In this document: in pieces, positions 1 to 49,189 of the stretch
Numbering within the stretch: the stretch's first letter is position 1
How the letters are laid out: each line of letters starts with the position of its first letter
Assembly: GCF_900114715.1 (NCBI RefSeq)
Contig: NZ_FOTY01000005.1
Span: forward strand, 62,001-126,000
Length of the DNA stretch: 64,000 nt
Origin: Salibacterium qingdaonense
GTDB taxonomy: Bacteria; Bacillota; Bacilli; Bacillales; Marinococcaceae
Direction of reading: 5' to 3'
The notes under the pieces: model-generated
What the model saw: the letters and a program-made list of their open reading frames with translations, nothing else
The model's database searches: none
Told to the model about the DNA's origin: nothing
Program-made: the position numbers and the translations under genes

Positions 1-1175
1 GCAATCTTGGAAGCCATCAGTGTAGACAGGCCGTACGGCGGTGTTACTGTACCGAGACGGATAGCCATTACAGTGACAATACCTGCCACAACCGGATCAA
101 TCTGCAGCGATTCCATCACCGGAAGTAAAAGCGGTACGAAAATCAGCATGGCGGATGTCGGTTCCATAAAAGTTCCCAATATAACATACAGCAGCATGAG
201 CAGAAGAAGGAAGCCACTTGCGGGCACATTGCTGTTGATAAGGAAATTGATAATCGGATCCATCACTTCATAATACGTGAGCACCCAGGATAAAAACCCT
301 GCCGCAGCAATGAGAATATAAATAACCGAGGATTCCATTGCCGCTTTCTTGGTTGCTGCTCCGTATTCTTTGAGGCTCGATCCTTTTTTGATAAAGAGTG
401 CCACTATGACAACATATACGACAGCAATACTGGCAGCTTCTGTTGCGGTAAACACACCGCTCATAATGCCGACAATAACGACCAGGAACAAGGAAAGCGG
501 AAAAATACTTTTCCGTACGGCGACAAGCTTGGAAAGGCGTTCGTTTTCCCCTAGATTAATATCTTTGTTGTCTACGTTGCCCACTTCATTTTTGGAAGCG
601 TAGTAATAGGCATATCCCATCTGCATCAGACCAATTAGAATGCCTGGAATTATCCCTCCCATAAACAAGGCAGCAACCGATGTCTGCGCCAACGCTCCAT
701 ATACAATCAGCAGAATACTTGGCGGGATAATGGAGCCAATCGTAGACGATGCTGCTGTGATGGTAGCAGCAAACTCTCTGCTGTATCCGGCTTTGATCAT
801 CGCCGGAATCAGTACACGGCCGAGAGAAGCCACATCAGCGACAGAGGATCCCGAGATAGCGGCGAAGAAGATACTGGTCACGATGTTAATATGAGCCAGA
901 CTTCCTTTTGCTTTACCCACTAAGGCTTTTGAAATGTAAATTAAATCTTCGGTCACCCCGGTAAGATTCATAATACGGCCGCAGAAGATAAACAAGGGAA
1001 TCGCCAGCAGTGTAAAACTTTGAATCGATTCCAGCATAATCGTACTCATCTGCGTCAAACTGACAAGGGGGTCTACTAAAACAGGGATCGCCGACGCCAG
1101 CACAAGACTGAAGACTACAGGCACTCCCAGGAGCAGACATGTAAAAAATACAGCGACAACCCCTACTAAAACCAT
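1..1175 (-). CDS. TRAP transporter large permease (DctM type), 3' end outside window
   Basis: Large membrane subunit of a tripartite ATP-independent periplasmic transporter, which drives solute uptake with an ion gradient. About 391 codons are visible from an ATG at 1173-1175 preceded by AGGTG; the C-terminus runs off the window. The translation starts MVLVGVVAVFFTCLLLGVP and is a series of hydrophobic helices. It carries the family features GSSVADVASLGRVLIPAM, STIGSIIPPSILLIVYG and, near the edge, RLGTVTPPYGLSTLMA. It follows the DctQ gene with an 11-bp gap and is the last visible gene of the operon that starts at 8146. The substrate is probably an organic acid or acid sugar, inferred from the catabolic neighbours. 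Confidence 0.93.
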   Translation of the reverse strand, partial: MVLVGVVAVFFTCLLLGVPVVFSLVLASAIPVLVDPLVSLTQMSTIMLESIQSFTLLAIPLFIFCGRIMNLTGVTEDLIYISKALVGKAKGSLAHINIVTSIFFAAISGSSVADVASLGRVLIPAMIKAGYSREFAATITAASSTIGSIIPPSILLIVYGALAQTSVAALFMGGIIPGILIGLMQMGYAYYYASKNEVGNVDNKDINLGENERLSKLVAVRKSIFPLSLFLVVIVGIMSGVFTATEAASIAVVYVVIVALFIKKGSSLKEYGAATKKAAMESSVIYILIAAAGFLSWVLTYYEVMDPIINFLINSNVPASGFLLLLMLLYVILGTFMEPTSAMLIFVPLLLPVMESLQIDPVVAGIVTVMAIRLGTVTPPYGLSTLMASKI

Positions 1176-1186
1176 GAATGATCACC

Positions 1187-1678
1187 TCACTGCCCTTTCC
1201 TGCTGTTAAAAAATTGCTTGATATTAATAAGATGAAAAATCAACATTAATACAGCACCGACCAGCACCGCCGAAAAGTAATAAGCCAATGAAGGCGGAGA
1301 GGAGAGGAATCGTACCTGCACCAGTTCTGTCCGTCCAAGGCCTGCTTCAAGTGCTTTCCATCCAACAACCACTAAAATACAAATCGCAGCCAGCGTTAAT
1401 ATATACACCAGGATATTTTTGATTTTTACCAATGTCGGGTGTAGAAAGTCAGAGAAAATATCAATCTGCAGATGCTCATTTCCTTTCACGGCTACCGCTG
1501 CTCCTAAAAAGACAAGCCATGCGATAGATAGCTTTTGAAATATCTCCGTTTCCGGTATGGATTCGGAGAATACGTAACGCGCCAGTACTCTTGTAAATAA
1601 AGTGAGGGACAACAAAACCAGAAAGAATGCGTTTATCGTCTCGATCCAGTTCTGAAATTTATCAAGAAGCTTTTTCAA
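1187..1678 (-). CDS. TRAP transporter small permease (DctQ type)
   Basis: Small membrane subunit of the TRAP transporter, partner of the DctM protein just downstream. 163 residues with four predicted membrane helices at roughly 16-34, 50-66, 88-108 and 131-152, normal for the family. The conserved region ETEIFQKLSIAWLVFLGAA and the NEHLQIDIF stretch match DctQ proteins. The start is a TTG (codon 1676-1678) with an AGGGAGG ribosome binding site about 12 bases upstream. It lies between dctP and dctM, the standard order P-Q-M. Confidence 0.9.
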   Translation of the reverse strand: MKKLLDKFQNWIETINAFFLVLLSLTLFTRVLARYVFSESIPETEIFQKLSIAWLVFLGAAVAVKGNEHLQIDIFSDFLHPTLVKIKNILVYILTLAAICILVVVGWKALEAGLGRTELVQVRFLSSPPSLAYYFSAVLVGAVLMLIFHLINIKQFFNSRKGQ

Positions 1679-1743
1679 CGTGCCGGGAACCTCCCTTCTC
1701 CAACCGCCCCCGCACGGCTGTGCATGCGGAGGCCGCTGTATCT

Positions 1744-2823
1744 TTACTGTGTACCGAAGATATCATCGATCTCATCCTGGATGCCGTGCTTTTCGGCAAT
1801 TGCCTGAAGCTGTTTTCTGGAGGCTTCGATAAATGCCTCGCGGTCAGGGTTTGTGAATTCGACACCGAACTCATCTTTCAATGTCTGAACATCTTCTTCT
1901 GATTTTTCAAAGGCTTTATTGATATATTCTTCCTGTACATCCTGCGCCGCGTTCATGACAACGTCCTGCATGTCAGAATCAAGGGCCTCAAACTGTTCGT
2001 TGTTCATAACAACAAAACCGAGGGTAAGATTGTGCTGGGTCCGGGCCACATAATCGGCTACTTCACCAAAGCGCTGCTCAATCATGGCGTCCATACTGTT
2101 CTGCGATCCTTCCACAACACCGGTCTGCAGGGCTGTGTACACTTCATCAAAAGCTACCGCTGTCGGGTTGGCTCCGAGGTTTCTCCACCATTCCAATTCG
2201 GTGGACTCGTTCTTACTGCGCATTGTTTTTCCCTGCAGGTCCTCTATCGACTCAATCGGGAACGTACTGATAATATTACGCTCCAGACCGCCGGCGTACA
2301 TGACCGTTTTCAGACCCGGTTCTTCCACAAGAAGATCTTCAAAGTACTGCAGGCTGTCCTCGGAATTCACCACTTCTTTGTAATGCTCTTCTCCTTCAAA
2401 GAGATAGTTGGTACCAAGAGCATCAAACTCAGGGTGATGCTCAGAAAACCAGCCGGAATCGGAATAAATCATGTCAATATCTCCTGAAATCACGGATTGA
2501 TAAAGGCTTGATGCATTACCAAGCTGGCCGCCTGTGGCCACCTGAAACTCGATTGCACCGTCACTCCGCGTTTCAATTTCATCAGCCAGTGCCTGCAGAG
2601 CATTCGCAAGCAGGGAGCCTTCCGGGTTAATGGTGGCAGCCACCATTTCCGTCGTTTCCTGAGACGAACCTTCCCCACTGCCACCGGATTCTCCGCCTCC
2701 GTTTCCTCCGTTCCCCGAGGAATTCTCAGCGCCGCTGCTTCCACAGCCGGCCGCTGCCATCATCGAAGTTCCAAGTACAGCTGCAGCAATAGCCTTTTTC
2801 ATATGAAACGAATGTTTTTTCAT
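1744..2823 (-). CDS. TRAP transporter solute-binding lipoprotein (DctP type)
   Basis: Extracytoplasmic substrate-binding subunit of the TRAP system. 359 residues; the N-terminus has a lipoprotein signal ending MMAAAGC, so it should be anchored to the membrane by Cys27, followed by a Gly/Ser-rich linker. The body matches the DctP fold: GSLLANALQALADEIETRS, then GGQLGNASSLYQSVISGDIDM, and the LQGKTMRSKNE and FDEVYTALQTGVVEGSQNS segments typical of the ligand-binding core. The start has an AAAGGAGGAG ribosome binding site. The acid-binding type of the protein and its operon point to a carboxylated sugar ligand; the exact ligand cannot be read from sequence. Confidence 0.94.
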   Translation of the reverse strand: MKKHSFHMKKAIAAAVLGTSMMAAAGCGSSGAENSSGNGGNGGGESGGSGEGSSQETTEMVAATINPEGSLLANALQALADEIETRSDGAIEFQVATGGQLGNASSLYQSVISGDIDMIYSDSGWFSEHHPEFDALGTNYLFEGEEHYKEVVNSEDSLQYFEDLLVEEPGLKTVMYAGGLERNIISTFPIESIEDLQGKTMRSKNESTELEWWRNLGANPTAVAFDEVYTALQTGVVEGSQNSMDAMIEQRFGEVADYVARTQHNLTLGFVVMNNEQFEALDSDMQDVVMNAAQDVQEEYINKAFEKSEEDVQTLKDEFGVEFTNPDREAFIEASRKQLQAIAEKHGIQDEIDDIFGTQ

Positions 2824-2858
2824 TGTTTTCTCCTCCTTTTAAATAAAACCTTGATGAT

Positions 2859-3944
2859 TTAACTTTTGACCCAATTTTCAGTCACAACCGTGTGCTTGAT
2901 ACATTCACGCAGGTAGGTGTACGTGATGTGCAGCGCCCCGTCCTTTGTCTGGTGGATGGATGGATACGAAAATTCAGGGGAGTCCTGATCATGCTGCTGC
3001 ACCGCGATTTCTCTATAATGCGGCCAGGTACGCCCATTGTCTTCGGAAACAGCAACAGCAAGCGGCGCACGGATCACACCCCAGATTGATTCCTGCTTCC
3101 CACTCTGTCCGGAGGCAATCGTCTGTTGGTCCTTATCATCAAACCAGGGAGGACTGTTTACTTCCGGTGGTGCCAGTTCAGCGTTAATATTATTAAATAC
3201 GATAGCAAGGTTCCCGCTCTGCAGTCTTTGGCACTGAATGGAAGCGTTATTGTTCATTAACGTCGTCTTTTTCGGTTCCGTCCATGTTCTGCCGTAATCA
3301 TTTGATGTTGTCACATGGATATAGTCTGCTTTACGGCTTCTGAAAAATCCAATTAATTCATTACCACCGCCTTTCACGATACTCATATGAACGAGTGCTT
3401 CACTTCCCTCCACCGGGTATTCCTCCCAGGTCTCTCCGGCATCCCCGGAAATCTTCACGACACTGTAGTCTTTTCCTAAAAACCCATTTTCGGATTTGAT
3501 GCTGTAGTAGGCAGGCAGAATGATTTCGCCATTATCCCGGATGACCGGGGGATTGCGCACGAATGACCCCGGCGTATCAAACAATGTCTGCTCTTGTTCC
3601 CATGTTCTTCCGTAATCATTGGAAATCCGGTACCGCACGACGGCTGAATCCTGATGAATCGAGTTCTGGGCGGTATAAAGCAGCCACAACGCGCCGTCGG
3701 GATGTTCGAATAACACCGGGTTTTGTTCCGATCTTTTTGGATCACCGGATAACACTTCCGGTTCACTCCAGCTGCCGCTTTCCTTTTCCAATCTGGAACA
3801 CAGAATGGAAATATCCGACTTTCCTTCCCGGGAACCACCGAACCAGGCGCACAACAGATCACCATTGCTTAGTGAAAGCAGGTTCGACGCATGATTGTGG
3901 GAAAATAAACTTGGTATTTTCGTTTCGGTTAATGCCTCACTCAT
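2859..3944 (-). CDS. Asp-box (BNR) beta-propeller protein, sialidase-like
   Basis: 361-residue protein of the sialidase/neuraminidase-like propeller superfamily. Four Asp-box motifs are visible: SNDYGRTW, SGDAGETW, SNDYGRTW and SEDNGRTW. The N-terminal segment HASNLLSLSNGDLLCAWFGG and the NPPVIRDNGEIILPAYYS and SYPSIHQTKDGALHITY segments are hallmarks of the COG4409-like group. There is no signal peptide or membrane segment, so it should be cytosolic and act after TRAP uptake. Members of this fold include glycosidases and polysaccharide or glucuronoside lyases, so the sialidase name is not proof of reaction. Its place between an SDR and a TRAP transporter suggests it processes the imported acid-sugar conjugate (inference). 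ATG start with a GAGGAG ribosome binding site. Confidence 0.85.
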   Translation of the reverse strand: MSEALTETKIPSLFSHNHASNLLSLSNGDLLCAWFGGSREGKSDISILCSRLEKESGSWSEPEVLSGDPKRSEQNPVLFEHPDGALWLLYTAQNSIHQDSAVVRYRISNDYGRTWEQEQTLFDTPGSFVRNPPVIRDNGEIILPAYYSIKSENGFLGKDYSVVKISGDAGETWEEYPVEGSEALVHMSIVKGGGNELIGFFRSRKADYIHVTTSNDYGRTWTEPKKTTLMNNNASIQCQRLQSGNLAIVFNNINAELAPPEVNSPPWFDDKDQQTIASGQSGKQESIWGVIRAPLAVAVSEDNGRTWPHYREIAVQQHDQDSPEFSYPSIHQTKDGALHITYTYLRECIKHTVVTENWVKS

Positions 3945-3992
3945 TTCGTTTTCTCCTCTCCTATGCCGGGTAAGCGCTTTAATAAAAGTCCT

Positions 3993-4739
3993 TTAATTCA
4001 TGTACGTTCCTCCGTTTATATTAATCGTCTCCCCTGTAATAAAATCCGACATGTTTGATGCGAGAAACAAGACGGCATCTGCTACATTTTCGGGGCTTCC
4101 GATTCTGTTTAACGGAATTTTCGAAAGGACCTGGCTGCGGTATTCCTCCGACCATTGTCTGCTCATGTCGGTTTCCACAGGTCCGGGGTTTACTCCGTTC
4201 ACGTTAATATTGTAATCCGCCATTTCAAGCGCCAGGTGCCTCGTGAGGTAATCCACTCCAGCCTTTGATGCGCCGTAGGCGGGTGCTGCGTTTTTATGGG
4301 CGTTTTTTGCAGCGGTGGAGCTGACATTGACAATTTTTCCGTGATGATTTTCGATCATATAAGGAAGGACCGTTTTACAAAAGTACAGCGTGCCGTTTAA
4401 GTTGACATCCAGAACGTTCTGCCACTCTTCCAGTCCCATATCAAGGGTCGAATTCCGGCTGTTTATACCAGCGTTGTTGACAAGAATATCAACACTGCCA
4501 AAGTGCTGAACCGCGGCTTCCACTGTACGGTCCGCGGTTTGTGGATCTGCCACATTACCGGGAACCATGTAACACCGCTGCCCGAGTTCTTCCACTTCTG
4601 TGACCAGCTGCTGCAGTAATATTTCATTTGTTCCATTCACAATCAGAGAGGCTCCGTTTTCCGCCAGTTTTAACGCTGCAGCTCTCCCTATGCCTCTGGT
4701 GGCGCCGGAAACGACAGCTGTTTGATTATCAAGTAACAC
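3993..4739 (-). CDS. SDR family oxidoreductase (FabG-like)
   Basis: 248-residue classical short-chain dehydrogenase. The NAD(P)-binding motif SGATRGIG is at 11-18, NNAG at 88-91, the catalytic Ser near 140-141 (NVSSTAAKN), and Tyr155-x3-Lys159 in YGASKAG. The C-terminal NPGPVETDM and TGETININGGTYMN segments are typical. Start is a GTG at 4737-4739 with GGAGG seven bases upstream. It lies within the acid-sugar operon, downstream of the DUF1537 kinase, so it probably oxidises a hydroxyl of the imported sugar acid or reduces a keto intermediate. Specificity cannot be read from the sequence. Confidence 0.92.
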   Translation of the reverse strand: MLLDNQTAVVSGATRGIGRAAALKLAENGASLIVNGTNEILLQQLVTEVEELGQRCYMVPGNVADPQTADRTVEAAVQHFGSVDILVNNAGINSRNSTLDMGLEEWQNVLDVNLNGTLYFCKTVLPYMIENHHGKIVNVSSTAAKNAHKNAAPAYGASKAGVDYLTRHLALEMADYNINVNGVNPGPVETDMSRQWSEEYRSQVLSKIPLNRIGSPENVADAVLFLASNMSDFITGETININGGTYMN

Positions 4740-4784
4740 TGCAATACCTCCATTCTTTTTTTGGGAAGAGTCACCTCCTCTTTT

Positions 4785-6086
4785 TTATCTTCTCTCCTTT
4801 TCTGTGCCGTGTTTCGTATTCAATCGTTTCAACGCTGTTTGCATAATCGTTTCTTTTCCAAAGTTTCCTGCCTTCGTCACAACAAACATATTGCTTTGTA
4901 CCGGCAGTTTTCCAATCGGGATACCGGGTTCTATTTCGTCCAGCAGCTCAAACATTTCCGCTCCCAGATTTTCCATCACCTGCATCGCTGTATCCCCGCC
5001 GGTCAGAAAGAGACGTTCCAACTGCAGTTCGTCAACAATAGCCGCAGCCGTTTCACCTAAAAAGCGGGAAATAAGATCACTTACTTCAACGGAACTGAGG
5101 CCGGCGTTTTTTCCGTTTTGAATGGCTTCTGCTGCGTTATCCGATGAATAAAAGGCGAGATGAAATCCTTCTGCTTCCGCACGCCCGGCTTCCGAGCGTA
5201 TCCGTTCGTATTCCTCCATCCGCCGCTCTGCTGATGCAACAATTTCGGCGGACTGTATTTCCAGCCCTTTGACGGTTTCATCCTGCAGCAGAACACGAAG
5301 CTGGTTTCTTCCTTCGGCGCTCATACTGCCGACTACAAACACCGCCGCTCCGCTCCCCTCGGGTATCTGCCGCGTGTGATAGTGTTTCTCTTCGTACCCG
5401 TAAACGGCCGGGAGATGATAAATTAAACCGGCGGACCCTCCCCATATCACGGAGTAAGATGTGCTTTCCACAAAAGCCGCCAAATCCGCCAGATCCGATT
5501 CGACGGCGGCATCCACCGTGATATGATGAATATTTTTATCTTTGCACATCTGAAGAATCTCACGTATTCTTGTTTCACCGGCGTGCAGATCTTCCAGATA
5601 AATGTGGGCAGTTTCTCTGCCGGATTGTTCTTGAATAATCCGGTTAATGTCTGAATGCTGTACCGGTGTTTTAGGGTCGCGCGCCACTTCCGTTTCATGT
5701 AGCAGTGTATCGTGAAGGTAAAGCATGCGGTTTTTCACCTTTCGGCCGTTCGAAGGATGAGCCGGAGCGGTAATAACAAAGTCAGGAGTAAAATAATCAT
5801 ATAGCGCATTGTTTTCCCGGCCGATATTCCCGCGCATGGTGGAATCGATTTTTTTGTAAATAATCGTTTCCTCCGTATGCTCTATCCTGCTGCAGTAGTC
5901 CTTCATCGTTTGATACGAATCTTTTGCTGTCATCGTTCTGCTGTCGGTATTGTAAATATAGATACTGTCTGTCTTTTTTTCTTCCGGCTCCTGAATGATG
6001 ACAAAAGGTGTCATGCCGTATTTGATGATCTGAACTCCGCTGTCGCCTGCTCCCGTTAAATCATCCGCTAAAATGGATAGTTTCAT
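4785..6086 (-). CDS. four-carbon acid sugar kinase family protein (DUF1537)
   Basis: 433-residue member of the DUF1537 family, whose characterised members phosphorylate four-carbon acid sugars such as threonate and erythronate. The N-terminal motif LADDLTGAGDSG (6-17) and the KKIDSTMRGNIG segment (about 98-109) form the substrate domain; the C-terminal LFLTGGDTAMQVMENLG segment forms the nucleotide-binding domain. The gene lies 12 bp behind the Fe-alcohol dehydrogenase. The usual threonate/erythronate partner PdxA2 is not in the visible operon; a DapA-like enzyme is present instead, so the substrate may differ. Ribosome binding site is modest (AAAGACAGG). Confidence 0.9.
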   Translation of the reverse strand: MKLSILADDLTGAGDSGVQIIKYGMTPFVIIQEPEEKKTDSIYIYNTDSRTMTAKDSYQTMKDYCSRIEHTEETIIYKKIDSTMRGNIGRENNALYDYFTPDFVITAPAHPSNGRKVKNRMLYLHDTLLHETEVARDPKTPVQHSDINRIIQEQSGRETAHIYLEDLHAGETRIREILQMCKDKNIHHITVDAAVESDLADLAAFVESTSYSVIWGGSAGLIYHLPAVYGYEEKHYHTRQIPEGSGAAVFVVGSMSAEGRNQLRVLLQDETVKGLEIQSAEIVASAERRMEEYERIRSEAGRAEAEGFHLAFYSSDNAAEAIQNGKNAGLSSVEVSDLISRFLGETAAAIVDELQLERLFLTGGDTAMQVMENLGAEMFELLDEIEPGIPIGKLPVQSNMFVVTKAGNFGKETIMQTALKRLNTKHGTEKERR

Positions 6087-6098
6087 AACCTGTCTTTC

Positions 6099-7259
6099 CT
6101 ATCCAAGAAGCCGGCGGTAGATATTCTTCATATCTTCAAGCGACAGTTCTTTCGGGTTGTTATCCAGCAGCCTTGTGATTTTGGAAGCTGCGACAGCAAG
6201 GTCTTCGATATCTTCTTCGGCAACGCCGTATTCGCTTAAATCCTGCGGTATTTCCAGTGTTTTCGTCCATTCTTTGATCTGTTCTATCATTTTTTCCGCT
6301 GCCTGCTGATCAGGTTCCCCGTCATCGGCAATCCGGATTTCTTTGGCGACGTTGGACAGCTTCTCTGTAATCGCATCGAGGTTAAACTCCATGACATGCG
6401 GAAGCAGCATCGCATTCGCCACACCGTGGGCTACTTTGAATTTTCCGCCTAAAGGATAAGCAAGCGCATGGACCGCGGCCGTTCCGGCACTGGTTAACGC
6501 CATTCCGCCATACATGGAACCGACAATCATTTTTTCCCTGGCTTCCACATTCTCACCGTTGCGGTACGCTTCTACAATGCTGCTGCTGATCAATCGAATA
6601 GAATCCATGGCAAAGGTGTCACTCAAATAATTGGCTTTGCTGGAAATATAGGACTCAAGCGAATGCGTGAACGCATCCATTCCCGTCGCTGCAGTAATGG
6701 ATTTTGGCAGTCCGAGAGTCAGCATAGGATCAAGGACAACCAGGTCAGGTAATAGGTAAGGGCTTACAATGCCGATTTTCAACTCTTCTTCCGGGAAGGT
6801 GACAATGGCATTCGGTGTTACTTCCGATCCTGTTCCAGACGTTGTAGGAATCAACACCGTCGGAATGCCCGGCTCTTCAATCAGATTGGTGCCCAGCATA
6901 TCGTTGACCGACTGATCATTTGTTTTCAGTACGGAAAGTACTTTCGCTGCATCCAGTACGCTTCCGCCGCCTACTCCTATGATGACATCGTACGAATCAT
7001 TTTTAATATCTTCGTGCATGTCTTCAATGTTACCGACTGTAGGTTCCAGCATAACGTCGGTGATGGTCTTGACATGGACGTCCTCCAGCTGTTCATAGAT
7101 ACTGTCCAGAAGTCCCAGATCCTTAATTCCCGGCTGGGTCAGCACAAGAACGGAACGAATATCCCGGTTTACCCCCGGCAGATAATCCCCCAGCTGTTTC
7201 ACCGCATGCTGCCCGGAAACTATTTTATCCGCTGTTTGAAATTGATACAGACGCTGCAT
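6099..7259 (-). CDS. iron-containing alcohol dehydrogenase
   Basis: 386-residue group III (iron-activated) alcohol dehydrogenase. The cofactor loop GVGGGSVLDAAK spans 95-106 and TTSGTGSEVT 139-148. Predicted metal ligands are Asp195 and His199 (GMDAFTHSLE), His264 (AVHALAYPLGG) and His278 (AHGVANAML), all present. Start ATG has AAAGGAGAT upstream. Second gene of the operon, 23 bp behind the DapA-like lyase, so it may reduce the aldehyde released by that enzyme or oxidise a hydroxy-acid (inference). A paralogue with low identity lies at 36795-37967. Confidence 0.93.
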   Translation of the reverse strand: MQRLYQFQTADKIVSGQHAVKQLGDYLPGVNRDIRSVLVLTQPGIKDLGLLDSIYEQLEDVHVKTITDVMLEPTVGNIEDMHEDIKNDSYDVIIGVGGGSVLDAAKVLSVLKTNDQSVNDMLGTNLIEEPGIPTVLIPTTSGTGSEVTPNAIVTFPEEELKIGIVSPYLLPDLVVLDPMLTLGLPKSITAATGMDAFTHSLESYISSKANYLSDTFAMDSIRLISSSIVEAYRNGENVEAREKMIVGSMYGGMALTSAGTAAVHALAYPLGGKFKVAHGVANAMLLPHVMEFNLDAITEKLSNVAKEIRIADDGEPDQQAAEKMIEQIKEWTKTLEIPQDLSEYGVAEEDIEDLAVAASKITRLLDNNPKELSLEDMKNIYRRLLG

Positions 7260-7282
7260 GATAATGATCTCCTTTCGTGTAT

Positions 7283-8146
7283 CTAACCATCTATAATGGT
7301 TTGTATTTTGTTCTCCAGTTCTTTCGATACTTCGTGTACAGGCGGACGCGGCGGCCCAGCCAGTATACCTTTTAACTCGACAGCTTTTTTATACACGGCA
7401 GGAACGGTTGCCGCCTGAGAAGCCTGTCTAATCGGACGAAGCTGTTCCTGAAAATATTGAGCCTGCTTCCAATCGTTTTCTTTCCACTTTCGATAGATCG
7501 AAACCGCCGTTTCCGGAAACACATTCGCTGTGGCGGCCACCGCCCCGTCTCCTCCTGCTATCAACGTCCATAAAATAAGAGAATCCGTGCCGGATAACAC
7601 AGTAAAGTCATCGTTCGTTTCTTCGATAAATCGTACAATATTATCGAAATTTCCGCTGCTGTCCTTAATGCCCGTTATATTGCCGACTTTCGACAGTTCT
7701 TTCACGGTATCAGGATGAATGGACACCCCGGTTTTCCCCGGCATGTTGTATAAGAGAACCGGCAGGGTGACCGCTTCTGCAACAGCTGTAAAATGAGTAA
7801 TCAGTTCGTTTTGGGAGACCGGATCAAAATAAGGCGTAATAACAGACAGAGCATCCACCCCTATGTTTTCCATCTCTCTGGACAATTCGATAACTTCCTG
7901 GGTACTGTTTCCACCTGTTCCCACTGCCAAGGGCACCCGGCCGTCTATTTCATCTTTCACTATAGAAGCAAAACGAAGCTTCTCTTCTTTTGTTAACGTA
8001 TGAAATTCACCATTCGTTCCGAGAGCGAAAATGCCATCCACCCCGCTGTCCAGCAAATATTGAACGAGCTGACGGGCAGCAGGTTCATTAATCTGGTGAT
8101 CCGCTGTCATCGGAGTAAGCATCGCTGGTACGATTCCTTTCAGCAT
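7283..8146 (-). CDS. DapA/NanA-family lyase or aldolase
   Basis: 287-residue class I (Schiff-base) aldolase of the dihydrodipicolinate synthase / N-acetylneuraminate lyase family. The family motif GTNGE is at 43-47, the general base Tyr133 in LLYNMPGKTG, and the Schiff-base Lys161 in ITGIKDSSG. First gene of the catabolic operon. Its partners (TRAP transporter, acid-sugar kinase, dehydrogenases) argue for a pyruvate-releasing or dehydratase reaction on a 2-keto acid rather than lysine biosynthesis. Start ATG has GAGGAGGGG upstream. Confidence 0.9.
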   Translation of the reverse strand: MLKGIVPAMLTPMTADHQINEPAARQLVQYLLDSGVDGIFALGTNGEFHTLTKEEKLRFASIVKDEIDGRVPLAVGTGGNSTQEVIELSREMENIGVDALSVITPYFDPVSQNELITHFTAVAEAVTLPVLLYNMPGKTGVSIHPDTVKELSKVGNITGIKDSSGNFDNIVRFIEETNDDFTVLSGTDSLILWTLIAGGDGAVAATANVFPETAVSIYRKWKENDWKQAQYFQEQLRPIRQASQAATVPAVYKKAVELKGILAGPPRPPVHEVSKELENKIQTIIDG

Positions 8147-8219: not shown

Positions 8220-8248
8220 AATATAAAATATAAAGTTTTATATTGCAA
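8220..8248 (-). promoter_or_regulatory. sigma-A promoter of the acid-sugar/TRAP operon
   Basis: Coding-strand TTGCAA, 17-bp spacer, TATATT. The -35 is at 8243-8248 and the -10 at 8220-8225. It leaves about a 65-base leader before the ATG at 8146. No -24/-12 (GG-N10-GC) sigma-54 element is visible in this gap. Confidence 0.65.
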
Positions 8249-8310
8249 CCATTTTCCGAAAAATACTTTTTGTATTTTTGTAAATCGTGAATTATTGTTT
8301 ATTTATGCAA

Positions 8311-8342
8311 CATAAAAGAGCCGGTCCTTTTATGAACCGGCT
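8311..8342 (-). terminator. terminator of the PrpR-like regulator gene
   Basis: Inverted repeat AGCCGGT / ACCGGCT with a 10-base loop, followed on the minus strand by CTTTTAT. It lies 9 bases beyond the regulator stop codon and separates it from the operon promoter. Confidence 0.75.
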
Positions 8343-8350
8343 TTCCTTTC

Positions 8351-10129
8351 TTATAATTCCTGTTTGTCCTGCTTCAGTTTTCTCCATAGCGTGGTTCTAT
8401 TAATTCCAAGTCGTTTGGCTGTCTGGGAATGATTATGATTTTCCTGTTCGAGCACCTGTTTAATGACGCGTGTTTCTATTTCACTCAACGTCCCGCTCAC
8501 TTGAATGTTGGGGTATTCCCATTTTTGCGGAAGAGCCTGTCGTATATTTTCCATCTCGAGATAGGACTCCCCGGCGATAAGCACTGCTTCTTCAATCACC
8601 CGGTACAGCTGTGACACATTTCCCGGCCAATCGATTTCCTTTAGGAGCTCCAGGCTCTCTTCCCTAATACCTGATATCTGCTTCCCATACCTGACATTAC
8701 TCTCATTTATGAAAAGACTGGACAAGCTCTCTATATCTTCTTTGCGTTCCCGCAGAGGAGGGATATACAGTTTCAGCTCTGCTGCCTGATCATACAGCGA
8801 ACCCAGGAAACTTTGCTGAACGAGGGGCTCCAGCTCACACGAAGTAGAGGATATAACCTGTGTATTCCCTTTTGCTTGCAGCGCACGGCTGACCATCTGC
8901 TGCCCGCTGCGGGACAAGGCATCAATGTTTTTCAGCAGAACGGTGCCGCCTTCTGCGAGAGAGACCAGCGAATACCCCTCAAGCGGGTCGCTGCTGATCC
9001 GTTCCAGTTCATTCTCCGTGACTTGTTCACAATCAATGGTTACAAAAGGAGAACGGTGCCTTTCGCTGCTGAGATGGATAAGCTCAGCTGTCCGTCCTTT
9101 TCCCGTGCCCCTTTCTCCTTCTATTAAGATATTCCTCCCTGCCCCGGCAAATGCCATGGCTTTCTCATACATCTTATTCATTTCTACACTTTCGGAGATA
9201 CGCCCTGTCAGCACAGTCGAAGGACCGGTTGTCCGGTGCTGGTTCGACTGGATATCCAGTCCGCGTACAGCTTGTATGTCGTCAATATCCAACAGGAAGA
9301 ACACACCGAAAGACTCTTCTTTCTCTTGGATCACCTGTGACTGAATAAGCCACATACGGCTGTCCTTCTCATACAAAAAGGAGTATGAGGGACTGCTTTC
9401 GATCTTCTGAAACACATCGTCCATTCCACCGAAATAATCCCACACAATGTTTTGGATAAATGCCGGATCATCCGTTCCAGCATACTTCACCTTTCCCTTC
9501 TGATCCAGTACGGCAACATCCTGCTGCATGTTTCGTAATACAACGTCGCCGATCCCATACCATGCTTTCATATTTTCCACAATGTTATAGGATTTGCGCG
9601 CTTCATAAAACGCCTTGCTGACACTTTCTCTTCCTGACGTCAATAAAATACCGTTCAGCCCAAGCTCTTCGGCTATCCGAACGGTGATAACATCACCAAT
9701 AATAACCTGGTATCCGTTTTTCTGAAGGGCCTTCAGTCTGCTCTGCACCTCATCGGCTTCTGTAATCGTAATGGTTTTCACATCAATGTCCACCAGCGAA
9801 CAGACGGCGGAAGCTCCTTCTGCAATAGCGGCGAAACCAACAATCGCTGCTTTACCGGGAAAGTCTTTAATCAGGGTAATGACTCTCAGCATGTCATACC
9901 CCGACACTTCTACTTCAATGACCGGAATCGAGACCTGTTCCTGGATAAGCTCGGCGGTACCGCCGCGGCTGATGATAATATCCGTTCCGTTATTCTCCGC
10001 TTCCTTTGCATAATGTAAGCCGGCATTTAAGTCACCGGTTTCCACAACCAATTCAAACGGCTGATTCTGCCCCAAACTTAAAAGGAGTTCCTTTAAACCC
10101 GGATACGGAGCTATAGCAAGAATTTTCAT
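8351..10129 (-). CDS. PrpR-type transcriptional regulator with degenerate AAA+ domain
   Basis: 592 residues from the ATG at 10127-10129, chosen because AAGGAGG sits just upstream and because the predicted promoter starts transcription near 10159; a longer reading from 10159 is unlikely. Order: PrpR_N sensor domain (1-170, VETGDLNAGLHYAKEAENNG and ISRGGTAELIQ), a PAS-like middle (about 185-290), an AAA+ domain, and a Fis-type helix-turn-helix at the end (HSQTAKRLGINRTTLWRKL). Walker A (GERGTGKG, 338-345) and the arginine-finger segment PLRERKED (458-465) remain. The GAFTGA loop is missing, and Walker B reads GGTVLLKN instead of the usual ...DE. It probably acts without sigma-54 and controls the operon downstream. 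Confidence 0.88.
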   Translation of the reverse strand: MKILAIAPYPGLKELLLSLGQNQPFELVVETGDLNAGLHYAKEAENNGTDIIISRGGTAELIQEQVSIPVIEVEVSGYDMLRVITLIKDFPGKAAIVGFAAIAEGASAVCSLVDIDVKTITITEADEVQSRLKALQKNGYQVIIGDVITVRIAEELGLNGILLTSGRESVSKAFYEARKSYNIVENMKAWYGIGDVVLRNMQQDVAVLDQKGKVKYAGTDDPAFIQNIVWDYFGGMDDVFQKIESSPSYSFLYEKDSRMWLIQSQVIQEKEESFGVFFLLDIDDIQAVRGLDIQSNQHRTTGPSTVLTGRISESVEMNKMYEKAMAFAGAGRNILIEGERGTGKGRTAELIHLSSERHRSPFVTIDCEQVTENELERISSDPLEGYSLVSLAEGGTVLLKNIDALSRSGQQMVSRALQAKGNTQVISSTSCELEPLVQQSFLGSLYDQAAELKLYIPPLRERKEDIESLSSLFINESNVRYGKQISGIREESLELLKEIDWPGNVSQLYRVIEEAVLIAGESYLEMENIRQALPQKWEYPNIQVSGTLSEIETRVIKQVLEQENHNHSQTAKRLGINRTTLWRKLKQDKQEL

Positions 10130-10165
10130 GCCATCCTCCTTCGTTGCAATATTAAACATAATTTC

Positions 10166-43719: not shown

Positions 43720-44274
43720 TTACAGAGAATCCTTCATTTTAAACAATTTCCGTTCGACGTCGTTCAGCTTGTGGTTGTTAAAAGCAACGCTGCCCTTCAC
43801 TTCTGAGAGCTCCATGGTTACATGCATATGGTATTCAGACAGTTTCCCTGTTTGATCCTGTATGACGTTCTGTTTACGCTCCATGCGGTCCACCGTCTCC
43901 TGCAGTGAATCCATTTTCTGCTGCAGACCGGCGGTATCCGCTTTCGTGGCAAGATGCTTCTGCGACTCTTTTGTCGCTAAACCTTCCAACATGTCTTTTG
44001 TTGCCAAGTCCTCCAGCATGTCTTTCGTTGCAAGATCCTCCAACATATCTTTCGTTGCTAAATCCTCCAACATATCTTTCGTTGCAAGATCCTCCAGCAT
44101 ATCTTTCGTTGCCAAATCCTCCAGCATGTCTTTCGTTGCCAGCGATTTTGTCTCTTCTTTTACAAGTTCCTGTACTTCCTCACGCGTTACCATATTCATT
44201 TCTACATGTTGAAGACGTTTCTCCATACTCTGGACCGTACCTAAAATCTGTTGAAGAATTTCATTATCACTCAA
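43720..44274 (-). CDS. coiled-coil protein with LATKDMLED tandem repeats
   Basis: 184 residues, not recognised. Start is a TTG with AAAGGAGG upstream. Predicted almost wholly helical, with heptad patterns at both ends (ILGTVQSMEKRLQHVEMNM; LQQKMDSLQETVDRMERKQ). The middle (45-98) is six copies of the nonapeptide LATKDMLE(D/G), followed by two decayed copies (LATKESQKH, LATKADTAG). No signal peptide or membrane segment. No partner gene is adjacent. A cytosolic structural or scaffold protein is possible, but this is a guess. Confidence 0.7.
   Translation of the reverse strand: MSDNEILQQILGTVQSMEKRLQHVEMNMVTREEVQELVKEETKSLATKDMLEDLATKDMLEDLATKDMLEDLATKDMLEDLATKDMLEDLATKDMLEGLATKESQKHLATKADTAGLQQKMDSLQETVDRMERKQNVIQDQTGKLSEYHMHVTMELSEVKGSVAFNNHKLNDVERKLFKMKDSL
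43981..44142 (-). repeat. 27-bp coding tandem repeat, six copies
   Basis: Six in-frame 27-bp units encoding LATKDMLED differ mainly at synonymous positions (for example CTTGCAACG, TTAGCAACG and TTGGCAACG for Leu-Ala-Thr), so the array is not freshly expanded and the peptide is under selection or was conserved by drift for some time. Confidence 0.9.
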
Positions 44275-46741: not shown

Positions 46742-48544
46742 CTACTCCACCGTCACGCTCTTGGCGAGGTTTCTCGGCTTATCGACGTCGCAGTCTCTGT
46801 GCAGGGCGGCGTAGTAGGAAATGAGCTGCAGCGGCACGACGGATACGAGCGGGCTGAGCAGTTCGTTGATGTTTGGAAGCACAATCGTGTCGCCTTCTTC
46901 TTTTGTTGCTTCGGTGCTGATGATGCAGGCGTTGGCGCCGCGGGCGATCACTTCCTGGATATTGCCTCGGATATTAGCGTTCACGTGCTGCTGAGTCGTG
47001 ACCCCGACAACCGGTGTGCCGTCTTCAATCAGGGCGATGGTTCCGTGTTTCAGTTCGCCGCCTGCAAAGCCCTCGGCCTGAATATAGGAGATTTCCTTCA
47101 GTTTCAGGGCTCCTTCCTGCACGACATGGTAATCCATGGCGCGCCCGATGAAAAAGCAGTTCCGGGTACCGGACATATAGTCACGAGCCACCTGCTCCAT
47201 ACGTTCTTTTTGATCGCACAGTGTTTCCATCGCATTCGCAATCAGACCGAGCTCGCTGATAGCGTTAAAATCTGAATGGATACCTTGGGCACGGGCGCCG
47301 TCCATCGCGAGGATGGAGAAGACCGCCATCTGGGCAGTATAAGCTTTTGTCGAAGCTACGGCAATCTCCGGCCCTGCGTACGTGTGCAGGGTGAAATCCG
47401 ACTCCCGTGTGAGAGTAGAGCCCGGCACGTTTGTAATGGTCAGGGACTGGCAGCCTTTTTCTTTCACATTGACGAGAACGCCGCGGCAGTCCGCGGTTTC
47501 TCCGCTTTGTGAAATAAAGATAAAGAGCGGGTTTTCCGACAGCAGCGGTTCATTGTATAAGAACTCGCTGGCAATATGAACTTCGGTCGGTTTCTCTGCG
47601 ACTTTTTCCATCAGCTCTTTTCCGGCAAGGCCGGCGTGATAGCTGGTACCAGCCGCAATCACGTAGAGACGATCCGCATCGTTAAGTGCGGCGCGGATAT
47701 CCTGATCGAGTTTGATGTCGCCGTCTTCGTCCTGGTATTTCTGAATGATATTGCGGATAACAAACGGCTGTTCATCAATCTCTTTCAGCATAAAATGGCT
47801 GTACGTCCCTTTTTCCGTGTCGCTCTCGTCGATATCGGTGGTGAAGGTGCTGCGCTCTACAGCAGTACCGTCGAGCTTTTTCACCTGGATGCTGTCTTTT
47901 TTCACGATGACAATCTCCTGATCCATAATTTCCATGAATTCTTTCGTCACATGAAGCATAGCCATCGCATCAGATGCTACGACACTGGATTCTTCTCCCA
48001 CTCCGACGAGAAGTGGACTTTTGTTTTTACCGACATAAATGGTTTCGTTATCTTCATTATCAATCAAGGCAATAGCATAAGAGCCGTGCAGAAGCGCGAG
48101 CGCCTGACGGAATGCTTCATCAACCGTTTCTCCTTCGCCGGTGAATGATTCGATAAGCTGCACAATGATTTCTGTGTCGGTCTCACTGGCCATCTCGACG
48201 TCACTCAGGTACTTGCGTTTGAGCTGCTGGTAGTTTTCAATAACGCCGTTATGCACAAGCGTAAAGCGGCCGCTAAGGCTCTGGTGAGGGTGGGCATTAT
48301 CGCGGCTCGGGGCGCCGTGTGTCGCCCAGCGGGTGTGGCCGATACCGGTCGTCCCGCGTCCCTCATTCCCAACTGTTTCTTCCAGAGAAGCAATCCGTCC
48401 TTTTTCTTTATGAAGTTCCACGCCGTCGTCACTTGCAAGGGCAATCCCCGCGGAGTCGTAACCGCGGTATTCAAGCTTTTGCAACCCCTTCAGAAGAATA
48501 TCTCTTGCCTGATTATTTCCGATATATCCTACGATTCCACACAT
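46742..48544 (-). CDS. glmS: glutamine-fructose-6-phosphate transaminase
   Basis: 600 residues, normal length. Makes glucosamine-6-phosphate from fructose-6-phosphate and glutamine, the first step of amino-sugar and cell-wall precursor synthesis. Cys2 is the glutaminase nucleophile ([10 protein letters not shown]); [10 protein letters not shown] follows. Two SIS domains hold the isomerase site ([14 protein letters not shown]; the C-terminal [12 protein letters not shown] is invariant). Controlled by the glmS ribozyme upstream. ATG with GGAGGTCATGACAGT upstream. Confidence 0.98.
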
Positions 48545-48600: not shown

Positions 48601-48624
48601 GCTCTTTATAGTTTTTAGGTTAGG

Positions 48625-48782
48625 CCGTCATCATCCAGGCTGTTGGGCACAGAGTCGCCTCTGTGGTTTAAACCGGGATTTTCGGTTGTGACAGGCAACC
48701 GGGAGGCATCCGCCGATCCATCGATGAACCTCCTCCTCGTCAACTGTTCCTCTTCTCCGACCGGGAACAGTCCGGGCGCTTG
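48625..48782 (-). ncRNA. glmS ribozyme-riboswitch
   Basis: The coding strand shows the conserved core in order: AGCGCCCGGACT at the 5' end (cleavage is just before the GCGCC), then CAGTTGACGAGGAGGAGGTT, ATCGA, TCGGCGGATGCCTCCCGGTTG, and the 3' pairing and pseudoknot part ending near 48625. On binding glucosamine-6-phosphate it cleaves its own mRNA and lowers glmS expression. 3' boundary is approximate. Confidence 0.93.
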
Positions 48783-49189
48783 TATTATGAAATTGTGCCG
48801 TCCTCCTCTTCTTTTCGCTTAAAATCCAGATTGAACTAAAAACGTGCTGATTCTTTGCTGAAATGCAGCGGTTCTGACTCTAAACATTTAAGAACCAGCC
48901 GGCCATTTTATCCCTTATTCCTTGATGTTTGTGCTCATTTCAAGAGAGAAAGAACATCTATTTTGGGACACGCTCTTCTTCATCAAAAAGCAGATTCTTT
49001 TTTCCAAACAGCGGATTGGATGCCTACCTCTGTATGATGGCACCACAGGAAAGAAATAAAGGGATAAATGTCCCAGCCGGCAAAAGGCATCACTTGCAGG
49101 ATACCTTTACCTTTTCTACTGCATGCAAAAACATGTTTCTCTGCCAGTATATGCAGCAACAAGCGGGGAAGTGCGGGCAGATCCAGCTT
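48783..49189. other. glmM-glmS intergenic region, no gene
   Basis: Between the glmM stop and the ribozyme. Contains a weak GGTTCT-N15-AGAACC hairpin near 48875-48902 on the minus strand and no convincing terminator or promoter. Whether glmS is cotranscribed with glmM cannot be decided here. Confidence 0.4.

Follow-up and report, generated by a model that had tools for sequence, protein, structure and literature searches.

Operon layout

The window analysed here, a 64,000-nucleotide stretch of a Salibacterium qingdaonense contig, begins inside an operon whose full order is a PrpR_N-type regulator, then DapA-family aldolase, Fe-ADH, DUF1537 kinase, SDR, Asp-box protein, DctPQM and PdxA2. Families were assigned by profile matches (DHDPS, Fe-ADH, SBD_N/NBD_C (DUF1537), SDR, BNR_2, DctP, DctQ and DctM). 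The genes named in the initial annotation are present with the families it gave, in the single direction it described, and the gaps from the aldolase gene onward are 11-65 nt.

8351..10159, minus strand: regulator with PrpR_N, AAA+ and Fis-type HTH parts (profile matches and sequence)
8312..8342, minus strand: terminator-like hairpin with a T-rich run after it, separating the regulator from the aldolase gene (folding)
7283..8146, minus strand: DapA/NAL-family Schiff-base aldolase with a GTNGE motif (profile matches)
6099..7259, minus strand: iron-type alcohol dehydrogenase (aldehyde reductase), Fe-ADH (profile matches)
4785..6086, minus strand: DUF1537 tetronate kinase of the KKIDSTMRGN type (profile matches)
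3993..4739, minus strand: short-chain dehydrogenase, SDR (profile matches)
2859..3944, minus strand: BNR_2 (COG4692-type) sialidase-fold protein, here the Asp-box protein, with no evident signal peptide
1744..2823, minus strand: TRAP substrate-binding protein DctP with a lipoprotein-type N-terminus (profile match)
1187..1678, minus strand: TRAP small permease DctQ (profile match)
1..1175, minus strand: TRAP large permease DctM, truncated at the left end of the window (profile match; full gene at L003:11871-13175)
G000:C37:60846-61844 (L003:10846-11844), minus strand: PdxA2-type gene, off-window, 26 nt downstream of dctM

The usual PdxA2 partner of the kinase had been reported as absent. This is incorrect: the gene follows dctM directly, and it seemed to be missing because the left edge of the window cuts the operon before it. 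The regulator had also gone without mention, as had the true 3' end of dctM, which lies beyond the window. GAFTGA, a motif of sigma-54 activators, was not seen in the regulator sequence as translated from 8351..10159. The 51-nt stretch at the hairpin upstream of the aldolase gene has a folding energy of -17.7 kcal/mol (z -4.39), which none of 200 shuffles equals. The aldolase gene is probably transcribed from a promoter of its own. Another terminator-like hairpin lies downstream of the PdxA2-type gene. The solved chains nearest to DctP are those of the sialic-acid protein SiaP.

Conservation across genomes

The Asp-box protein led to 92 related loci. All four core genes (DapA, Fe-ADH, kinase and PdxA2) lie close by in 58 of them, at least one of the four does in 77, and none does in the other 15. 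The search for the same gene set in other genomes, as suggested in the initial annotation, recovered it from both Bacillota and Pseudomonadota, and the set is not a chance assembly: it is conserved, with rearrangements, across the two phyla. It is found in Bacillota, rhizobia, Pantoea and Pectobacterium, and its hosts include many genera known to live with plants. Of 299 evenly drawn Pseudomonadota genomes, nine have the Asp-box protein, one of them being the centre genome, and DapA, Fe-ADH and PdxA2 accompany it at eight of these nine loci.

The neighbours of the core genes vary. Of the 92 loci, 67 have an SDR close to the Asp-box gene, 29 have a relative of the NanQ/YhcH-type sugar-acid anomerases nearby, and five have a tartrate-dehydrogenase-like gene. 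Transport is most often by small-acid carriers (SSS, TRAP, SLC13), which occur at 75 of the 92 loci; dipeptide-type or sugar-type ABC importers, able to carry larger substrates, are present in some clusters. The one pectin-type neighbour that was profiled, a GH28 protein in Pantoea, was positive in both loci scanned, and GH28 had no match in the window genome.

Of 5426 complete E. coli genomes, 1043 (about a fifth), Nissle 1917 among them, carry an 8.2-kb version of the cluster. The kinase and dehydrogenase pair in E. coli is annotated by NCBI as dtnK and D-threonate 4-phosphate dehydrogenase. The Nissle cluster has a permease of the SLC13/CitT type, whose family transports di- and tricarboxylates, and no SDR is annotated in it or in the R. 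ruizarguesonis cluster. In E. coli BEN2908 the same pathway set makes up genomic region GR 6 (CitT-type permease, NanQ-like, COG4692, DapA, Fe-ADH, OtnK/DtnK, PdxA and GlpR-type); it differs from the window operon in its transporter and regulator, lists no SDR in the available text, and is described there as uncharacterised, with no catabolic pathway proposed (PMC12928451, 2026). Our literature searches found no assigned substrate for the gene set.

Kinase and PdxA2-type dehydrogenase

The window kinase is a two-domain DUF1537 kinase (SBD_N, 192.5 bits; NBD_C, 109 bits). Against the NCBIfam D-threonate kinase model it scores 275 bits, under the cut-off of 450, whereas the clustered Pectobacterium orthologue, nearly the same protein as the 4xfm chain (854 bits), scores 613. 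The function of the window kinase is therefore assigned by synteny and not by the model. The best solved relative of the PdxA2-type protein is 4jqp, named 4-hydroxythreonine-4-phosphate dehydrogenase (439 bits), and the second is 6e85, a D-threonate 4-phosphate dehydrogenase (317 bits); the PdxA chains 1ps7 and 1yxo score about 197-199 bits. It passes the general pdxA model TIGR00557 (366.9 against 290.35) and falls under the NCBIfam D-threonate 4-phosphate dehydrogenase cut-off (PRK03371; 349.7 against 583 bits).

A kinase and PdxA2 together suffice for D-threonate, and its catabolism through DtnK and PdxA2 was reportedly described by Zhang et al. in PNAS in 2016. DtnK and DenK are published as D-threonate and D-erythronate kinases, and 4-hydroxythreonine can also be phosphorylated by a DUF1537 kinase, according to the available text of PMC10971088. 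The operon had been said to match no standard pathway. This does not hold for the D-threonate kinase and catabolic PdxA2, which are already published (PMC10971088 and PMC9997740, in their available text), but it stands for the whole set, which is uncharacterised in E. coli as far as the consulted part of PMC12928451 goes. The window operon resembles D-threonate catabolism in having both genes in one operon, with clustered orthologues named D-threonate kinase and D-threonate 4-phosphate dehydrogenase, but it adds a DapA-type aldolase, an Fe-ADH, a sialidase-fold protein and, across loci, often an SDR or YhcH.

It could be that the operon serves plain D-threonate (or D-erythronate) use, in which case the TRAP transporter would import the four-carbon acid while DapA, Fe-ADH, SDR and the Asp-box protein serve a second substrate from the same habitat. 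Besides the published kinases and the sufficiency of kinase and PdxA2, this is favoured by three of the 92 loci (L033, L055 and L069), where the kinase is the only one of the four core genes present. However, the genome of L033 carries the full module elsewhere (L126), and at L055 and L069 DapA and PdxA2 lie further along the same contig (L130 and L128). Also against it, two Pantoea, B. swezeyi and Metabacillus carry the four-gene module at a site separate from the Asp-box gene (L123-L126), so that DapA and Fe-ADH stay with the kinase and PdxA2 where the Asp-box gene and transporter are elsewhere, as expected of one linear pathway. We consider plain D-threonate use quite unlikely. Elsewhere among the 18 followed-up genomes, the DapA match adjoins an smpB-like gene and looks biosynthetic in three (L127, L129 and L131), and there was no DapA match at the threshold used in three more.

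Aldolase and dehydrogenases

The window aldolase has a lysine at the position of DHDPS Arg138. The residue is basic in 64 of 69 DapA-family proteins from related loci (Arg in 44, Lys in 20) and the basic residue is missing in the other five. In DHDPS this position binds the carboxylate of aspartate semialdehyde, and Arg or Lys here is as expected for a four-carbon aldehyde acid. The aldolase passes the NCBIfam model for dapA of the lysine pathway (246.7 against a cut-off of 206.15; the Pectobacterium orthologue, at 194, is below it), and the context of the window operon is catabolic. Identity as NanA, the N-acetylneuraminate lyase, was also considered and rejected (142.5 against the NCBIfam nanA cut-off of 382). 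In the Fe-ADH, D195, H199, H264 and H278, which we take to be the metal ligands, are invariant in all 66 sequences. The window SDR matches models that cover, among others, glucose 1-dehydrogenase and L-rhamnose 1-dehydrogenase.

The sialidase-fold protein

The predicted model of the Asp-box protein (pLDDT 93.6) has the sialidase fold end to end (Z 37.8 over 311 residues, rmsd 2.3). H18, E40, H186, R202, R292 and Y327 are invariant in all 50 aligned BNR_2 sequences. By three HMMER alignments and residue counts, the position of the GH33 catalytic Glu is His186 in all 50. Arg202 aligns with a sialidase Arg in several segments, Arg292 does so only in weak ones (4-9 bits), and the sole segment that pairs Tyr327 with the sialidase nucleophile Tyr is weak (9 bits). 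His18 probably occupies the place of the FRIP Arg, judging solely from a manual alignment. As modelled, the protein has the sialidase fold without the full sialidase catalytic set. The earlier description of it as lacking a signal peptide is consistent with a crude hydropathy test, as distinct from a signal-peptide program, in which none of the 50 sequences, the window's included, has an N-terminal stretch reaching a mean of 1.6, against 1.8 for the DctP control.

This bears on whether the imported compound is a conjugate, for example Dha (discussed below) or tartrate joined to another unit, which the sialidase-fold protein would hydrolyse in the cytosol while the four-gene module handles one half. 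Such a role would suit the full fold, the retained Arg202, Arg292 and Tyr327, the ABC importers of some clusters, and the precedent of human Neu2, a cytosolic sialidase with the same fold. The His at the catalytic Glu position, the probable His at the FRIP Arg position and the small-acid carriers at most loci argue against it, and we regard a conjugate as unlikely.

GH143 membership was considered from the published description and rejected. The available text of PMC6811678 describes the GH143 Dha-hydrolase of B. thetaiotaomicron, likewise a propeller enzyme, as five-bladed, with a Tyr-Glu pair and activity on RG-II chains, whereas the Asp-box protein is sialidase-fold throughout, has His at the Glu position and shows no evident signal peptide.

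Proposed pathway

From the observed gene set, its conservation, the family assignments and the predicted fold, we infer that the operon serves to take up and break down a 2-keto-3-deoxy sugar acid. The likeliest class is a seven-carbon diacid and the likeliest compound Dha, a reading to which we give about even chances. Dha is 3-deoxy-D-lyxo-2-heptulosaric acid and occurs in the rhamnogalacturonan II of plants and in the scales of prasinophyte algae; it is called a seven-carbon sialic acid analogue in the available text of PMC6811678. The initial view of an acid-sugar catabolic operon ending in phosphorylation is supported.

In the proposed scheme the TRAP transporter would import the sugar acid, and the sialidase-fold protein would process its cyclic form by ring/anomer or ketoside chemistry. 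The DapA-type aldolase would then cleave it to pyruvate and a four-carbon tartrate-type semialdehyde, as suggested by stereochemistry and the gene set. The Fe-ADH would reduce this aldehyde to D-threonate, the DUF1537 kinase would phosphorylate D-threonate at position 4, and PdxA2 would oxidise and decarboxylate the product to CO2 and DHAP, an intermediate of glycolysis. By stereochemical bookkeeping over the eight 3-deoxy-heptulosaric acids, D-threonate arises from the D-lyxo and D-xylo forms only, and natural Dha is D-lyxo. The order proposed originally (oxidise, phosphorylate, split) is unlikely to be right. Aldol cleavage ahead of reduction and phosphorylation is the better fit, since the four core genes keep together even at sites away from the Asp-box gene.

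Besides the stereochemistry, the Dha reading is favoured by the PdxA2-type gene at the end of the operon, the joint occurrence of the four core genes, the D-threonate kinase score of the Pectobacterium orthologue, the NCBI names of the E. coli pair, the basic aldolase residue, the anomerase relatives, the SiaP-like DctP, the Nissle permease and the plant-associated hosts. Counting against it are the scores of the window kinase and PdxA2-type protein under the D-threonate cut-offs, the dapA match of the window aldolase, the five aldolases without the basic residue, the 15 loci with no core gene, the biosynthetic-looking or missing DapA matches in six followed-up genomes, the tartrate-dehydrogenase-like genes at five loci, the lack of a GH28 match in the window genome, and the SDR, which has no step in the scheme.

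A seven-carbon ulosonate or another 2-keto-3-deoxy acid is a further candidate. 3-Deoxy-heptulosonate, for example, would give pyruvate and a tetrose, which the SDR would oxidise, with the Fe-ADH acting on another aldehyde; the sugar dehydrogenase models matched by the SDR and its frequency near the Asp-box gene fit this. Yet the D-arabino form that occurs in nature would yield D-erythronate and not D-threonate, by hand reasoning from the stereochemistry table, the Nissle and R. ruizarguesonis clusters have no annotated SDR, and the basic DapA residue and SLC13-type permease favour a diacid. We think this improbable.

The Dha scheme amounts to a galactarate-like route of aldolase, semialdehyde reductase and kinase, one carbon longer and joined to the known D-threonate route. 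The galactarate/glucarate pathway uses the aldolase GarL, the reductase GarR and the kinase GarK, and would share with the present scheme the cleavage to pyruvate and a semialdehyde acid, followed by reduction and phosphorylation; it differs in its protein families, in its proposed substrate length (C6, not C7) and in that the window operon would need a final decarboxylating dehydrogenase. Sialic acid (nan) operons are similar in SiaP-like TRAP or SSS import, a DapA/NAL-fold lyase, a YhcH/NanQ relative (in some clusters) and a sialidase-fold protein, but no ManNAc kinase/epimerase or NagA/NagB-type gene is among the operon's genes and the aldolase is not NanA by model. Literature searches found no published catabolic route for Dha.

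More tentatively, and with somewhat less confidence than in the substrate, the operon may encode a complete cytosolic Dha pathway, yielding pyruvate and D-threonate, the latter converted to DHAP, in which the His-substituted sialidase-fold enzyme catalyses a new reaction on a ulosaric acid.

The copy in E. coli Nissle 1917 makes the Dha reading directly testable. If true, it would account for the bacterial use of one of the rarest plant cell wall sugars, and it would provide a physiological source for the D-threonate consumed by DtnK and PdxA2. It would also define a new activity for a large protein group whose members currently carry the label 'exo-alpha-sialidase' or 'sialidase family protein'.

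The operon and its continuation past the window edge

The left end of the window falls inside a minus-strand operon, in a genome of 3.5 Mb assembled in 68 contigs. Two of the features at this site are used as reference points here:

8351-10159, minus strand: regulator with PrpR_N, AAA+ and Fis-type HTH domains
2859-3944, minus strand: Asp-box protein (BNR_2, sialidase fold)

Downstream of the regulator lie, in order, genes for a DapA-family aldolase, an Fe-ADH, a DUF1537 kinase, an SDR, the BNR_2 protein, DctP, DctQ and DctM. The spacer between the regulator and aldolase genes is 204 nt and holds a terminator-like hairpin, and from the aldolase gene onward the intergenic gaps are 11-65 nt. The SDR looks accessory.

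The initial annotation had reported that the usual PdxA2 partner of DUF1537 kinases was missing. The window edge cuts dctM, which is whole in the fetched flank, and a PdxA-family gene (332 aa) starts 26 nt past its end, followed by a hairpin and a T run; the reported absence was thus an artefact of the edge. Against solved chains the protein scores 439 bits to 4jqp (named 4-hydroxythreonine-4-phosphate dehydrogenase), 317 bits to 6e85 (D-threonate 4-phosphate dehydrogenase) and about 199 bits to the PdxA chain 1ps7. Because it falls below the NCBIfam D-threonate 4-phosphate dehydrogenase cut-off (349.7 vs 583) and exceeds that of the general pdxA model (366.9 vs 290.35), the label PdxA2 is drawn from context and from the match to 6e85, closer than that to 1ps7.

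Two other features of the window were recorded. An ORF at 43720-44274 carries six near-identical tandem 9-residue repeats (ATKDMLEDL). A glmS ribozyme lies at 48623-48791, upstream of a gene named by reading as glutamine-fructose-6-phosphate aminotransferase-like (46742-48544), a placement usual in Bacillota.

Conservation of the gene set

Being the operon's most unusual member, the Asp-box protein served as bait, so its linkage to the other genes was not built into the search. It was found in 3 of 29 genomes of the family sample, window genome counted, and in 9 of 299 of a Pseudomonadota sample, centre genome counted. The class sample gave 8 of 398: the window genome, three clear relatives (42-52% identity), three distant ones (35-37%) and one fragment. 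The exact gene order is kept in a same-genus genome (fetched locus L015). Named genomes were scanned as well, and the best 80 of 570 matches include Gracilibacillus, Oceanobacillus, Bacillus, Pectobacterium, Dickeya, Erwinia, Pantoea, Pseudomonas, Paraburkholderia and Bradyrhizobium, with Pectobacterium, Pantoea, Bradyrhizobium and Pseudomonas over-represented.

The initial annotation had suggested looking for the same gene set in other genomes, and it is there: DapA, Fe-ADH, kinase and PdxA2 genes all lie within 9 kb of the Asp-box gene in 58 of 92 loci. At least one of these core genes is near it in 77 loci and none in 15; SDR genes accompany it in 67 loci, and YhcH/NanQ-type genes in 29. 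Gene calls in this count are BLAST matches above 70 bits within 9 kb, which could include a biosynthetic dapA or an unrelated SDR. Of 94 loci entered, 92 were usable; L048 and L090 were dropped since an overlap rule displaced their Asp-box call, and tblastn locates the Asp-box gene at both, accompanied by DapA, Fe-ADH and PdxA2. The loci L098 and L100 belong to one assembly and have an identical pattern, so one of the two counts is redundant. A fragment (L014) and three loci with 29-32% identity over the protein and another context (L020-L022) stand outside the count. In the Pseudomonadota draw, DapA, Fe-ADH and PdxA2 are present at 8 of 9 loci, the exception (L142) having only transporter, Asp-box and SDR genes.

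Some neighbourhoods differ in kind. An Nramp-family protein, an unexpected transporter family for a sugar acid, occupies the transporter position beside the Asp-box gene at L033:8557-9912 (profiled) and, similarly, at L029:8548-9918. On a Haladaptatus plasmid (L151, 2175-16493), a divergent archaeal Asp-box homologue has two genes of the mandelate racemase family and MFS carriers in its neighbourhood. When DapA was searched against phages, 38 records matched, with 34-37% identity in the five rows listed; these are matches at the level of the general family.

In E. coli, the Asp-box gene query (1.2 kb) matched in 1043 of 5426 complete genomes. At least 80% of the length of the Nissle 1917 cluster (8.2 kb) was aligned in 1043 genomes, and in 1034 of the 1044 matching records the identity was 99% or higher. 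The Nissle cluster lies between glnS and nagE and encodes, in order, a DeoR-type regulator, D-threonate 4-phosphate dehydrogenase, dtnK, Fe-ADH, DapA, TerC, a sialidase family protein, a YhcH family protein and an SLC13 permease; the TerC-family membrane protein is at 8220-8978 of the fetched locus (L149). GR 6 of strain BEN2908, which comprises the same gene set, is placed under 'uncharacterized' in a 2026 paper (PMC12928451) that also mentions a similar S. meliloti cluster. On a Rhizobium ruizarguesonis plasmid, genes for DapA, the Asp-box protein, Fe-ADH, PdxA and the kinase accompany an ABC importer of dipeptide type.

The four-gene module as a probable pathway

The DapA/Fe-ADH/kinase/PdxA2 module is sited away from the Asp-box gene in two Pantoea, Bacillus swezeyi and Metabacillus arenae, and it is therefore a pathway in its own right. 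The Metabacillus and Pantoea modules additionally include a D-2-hydroxyacid dehydrogenase together with a sugar-acid carrier of the MFS, of ACS type where joined to the module at L126:13198-15459 and L123:6260-8655; through this pair the pathway may have a second entry. In 3 of 18 genomes searched, DapA had no match by the threshold chosen. In three other genomes (L127, L129 and L131) the examined DapA match adjoins an smpB-like gene and looks biosynthetic, and so is not evidence of a second module.

A reading centred on tartrate was also considered. A tartrate-dehydrogenase-like gene lies near the Asp-box and SDR genes at five loci, as BLAST matches at L057, L080, L086 and L093 and as a profiled call at L072 (9914-12968), whose copy passes the TTC model (533.6 vs 470.4). 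A same-class genome (L017:7212-10798) has a variant in which genes for the alpha and beta subunits of a fumarase/tartrate-dehydratase-type enzyme (TtdAB) and for the Asp-box protein come after DapA; a sugar-type ABC transporter lies upstream of the set. Against this reading, clustered-class DapA occurs elsewhere in four Pantoea genomes, and both examined are in a full module (L123, L124), which leaves the tartrate genes suggestive only. The reading was rejected; these genes, found at few loci, may be another branch.

Kinase and D-threonate

The clustered Pectobacterium kinase exceeds the D-threonate kinase cut-off (613 vs 450) and scores 854 bits to PDB 4xfm, from which it differs only at scattered positions. 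That entry, listed only as 'Uncharacterized protein', presumably stems from the study of DUF1537 proteins and D-threonate. The window kinase is under the same cut-off (275 vs 450), so its function rests on synteny. It contains the segment KKIDSTMRGN, a motif type present in 57 of 66 cluster kinases; the STFDS type, linked with 3-oxo-tetronate kinases, is in none of the 66.

The STFDS type does occur in the window genome's second DUF1537 protein, a kinase by Pfam, whose gene cluster spans positions 3957-10469 of L004 (contig 55 of the window genome, G000:C55:8000-27500). The other members, named by reading, are a protein resembling class II aldolases, a TRAP system of the cluster's own, a Zn-ADH and a GntR/FCD-type regulator. 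The locus looks like a separate 3-oxo-tetronate-type route.

The sialidase-fold protein

The predicted structure of the Asp-box protein (mean pLDDT 93.6) matched bacterial sialidases with Z 37.8 over 311 residues and human cytosolic Neu2 with Z 37.1. In HMMER alignments, segments scoring 21-27 bits pair Arg202 with a sialidase arginine and His186 with the catalytic Glu; only weak segments, of 4-9 bits, pair Arg292 with a second arginine and Tyr327 with the catalytic Tyr. All four residues are invariant in 50 of 50 sequences (49 of 80 listed homologues plus the window protein). In an ungapped hand alignment with the sialidase segment RIPGLVTTNNG, His18 occupies the FRIP arginine position. An ordinary GH33 sialidase was rejected on the catalytic positions, one aligned by hand and two on weak segments. 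The protein is thus of sialidase fold; it probably retains the ability to bind the carboxylate of an alpha-keto acid, and its chemistry would be altered. It might open the ring or exchange anomers, hydrolyse a lactone, or act as an unusual ketosidase.

Proposed reactions and substrate

Among 69 DapA-family sequences (68 from the loci plus the window copy), the KDS Schiff-base segment is present in 69 and GTNGE in 64. The position of DHDPS Arg138, which binds the carboxylate of aspartate semialdehyde, is basic in 64 (Arg in 44, Lys in 20, including the window copy). Tartrate semialdehyde is the dihydroxy analogue of aspartate semialdehyde. The Fe-ADH metal ligands are invariant in 66 of 66, as in the active type. 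In the proposed order the aldolase would act first, giving tartrate semialdehyde as the C4 product, which the Fe-ADH would reduce to a tetronate.

When the Fischer stereochemistry of the eight 3-deoxy-2-heptulosaric acids was worked through, D-threonate arose from the D-lyxo and D-xylo compounds only; the natural D-arabino heptulosonate, worked by hand, gives D-erythronate instead. Dha (3-deoxy-D-lyxo-2-heptulosaric acid) in chain D of RG-II (rhamnogalacturonan II) is the D-lyxo compound, and prasinophyte scales contain a deoxy-lyxo-2-heptulosaric acid.

Two further readings were set aside. Sialic acid catabolism was rejected because the aldolase failed the NanA model and downstream genes were missing. 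Pectin degradation by the host itself was rejected because GH28, the family searched, was not found in the window genome.

Searches of the open-licence PMC literature, with passages of PMC10971088, PMC9997740, PMC10762512, PMC13220900, PMC12282258, PMC6994554, PMC6811678, PMC12540250, PMC5811610 and PMC12928451, turned up no description of Dha catabolism. The SLC13/CitT-type permease of E. coli, the SiaP-like DctP and the NanQ-like proteins fit a cyclic dicarboxylic keto sugar. Altogether we infer, with reasonable though far from complete confidence, a generic aldolase-reductase-kinase-PdxA2 pathway, and tentatively, at somewhat less than even chances, suggest that Dha may be its substrate.
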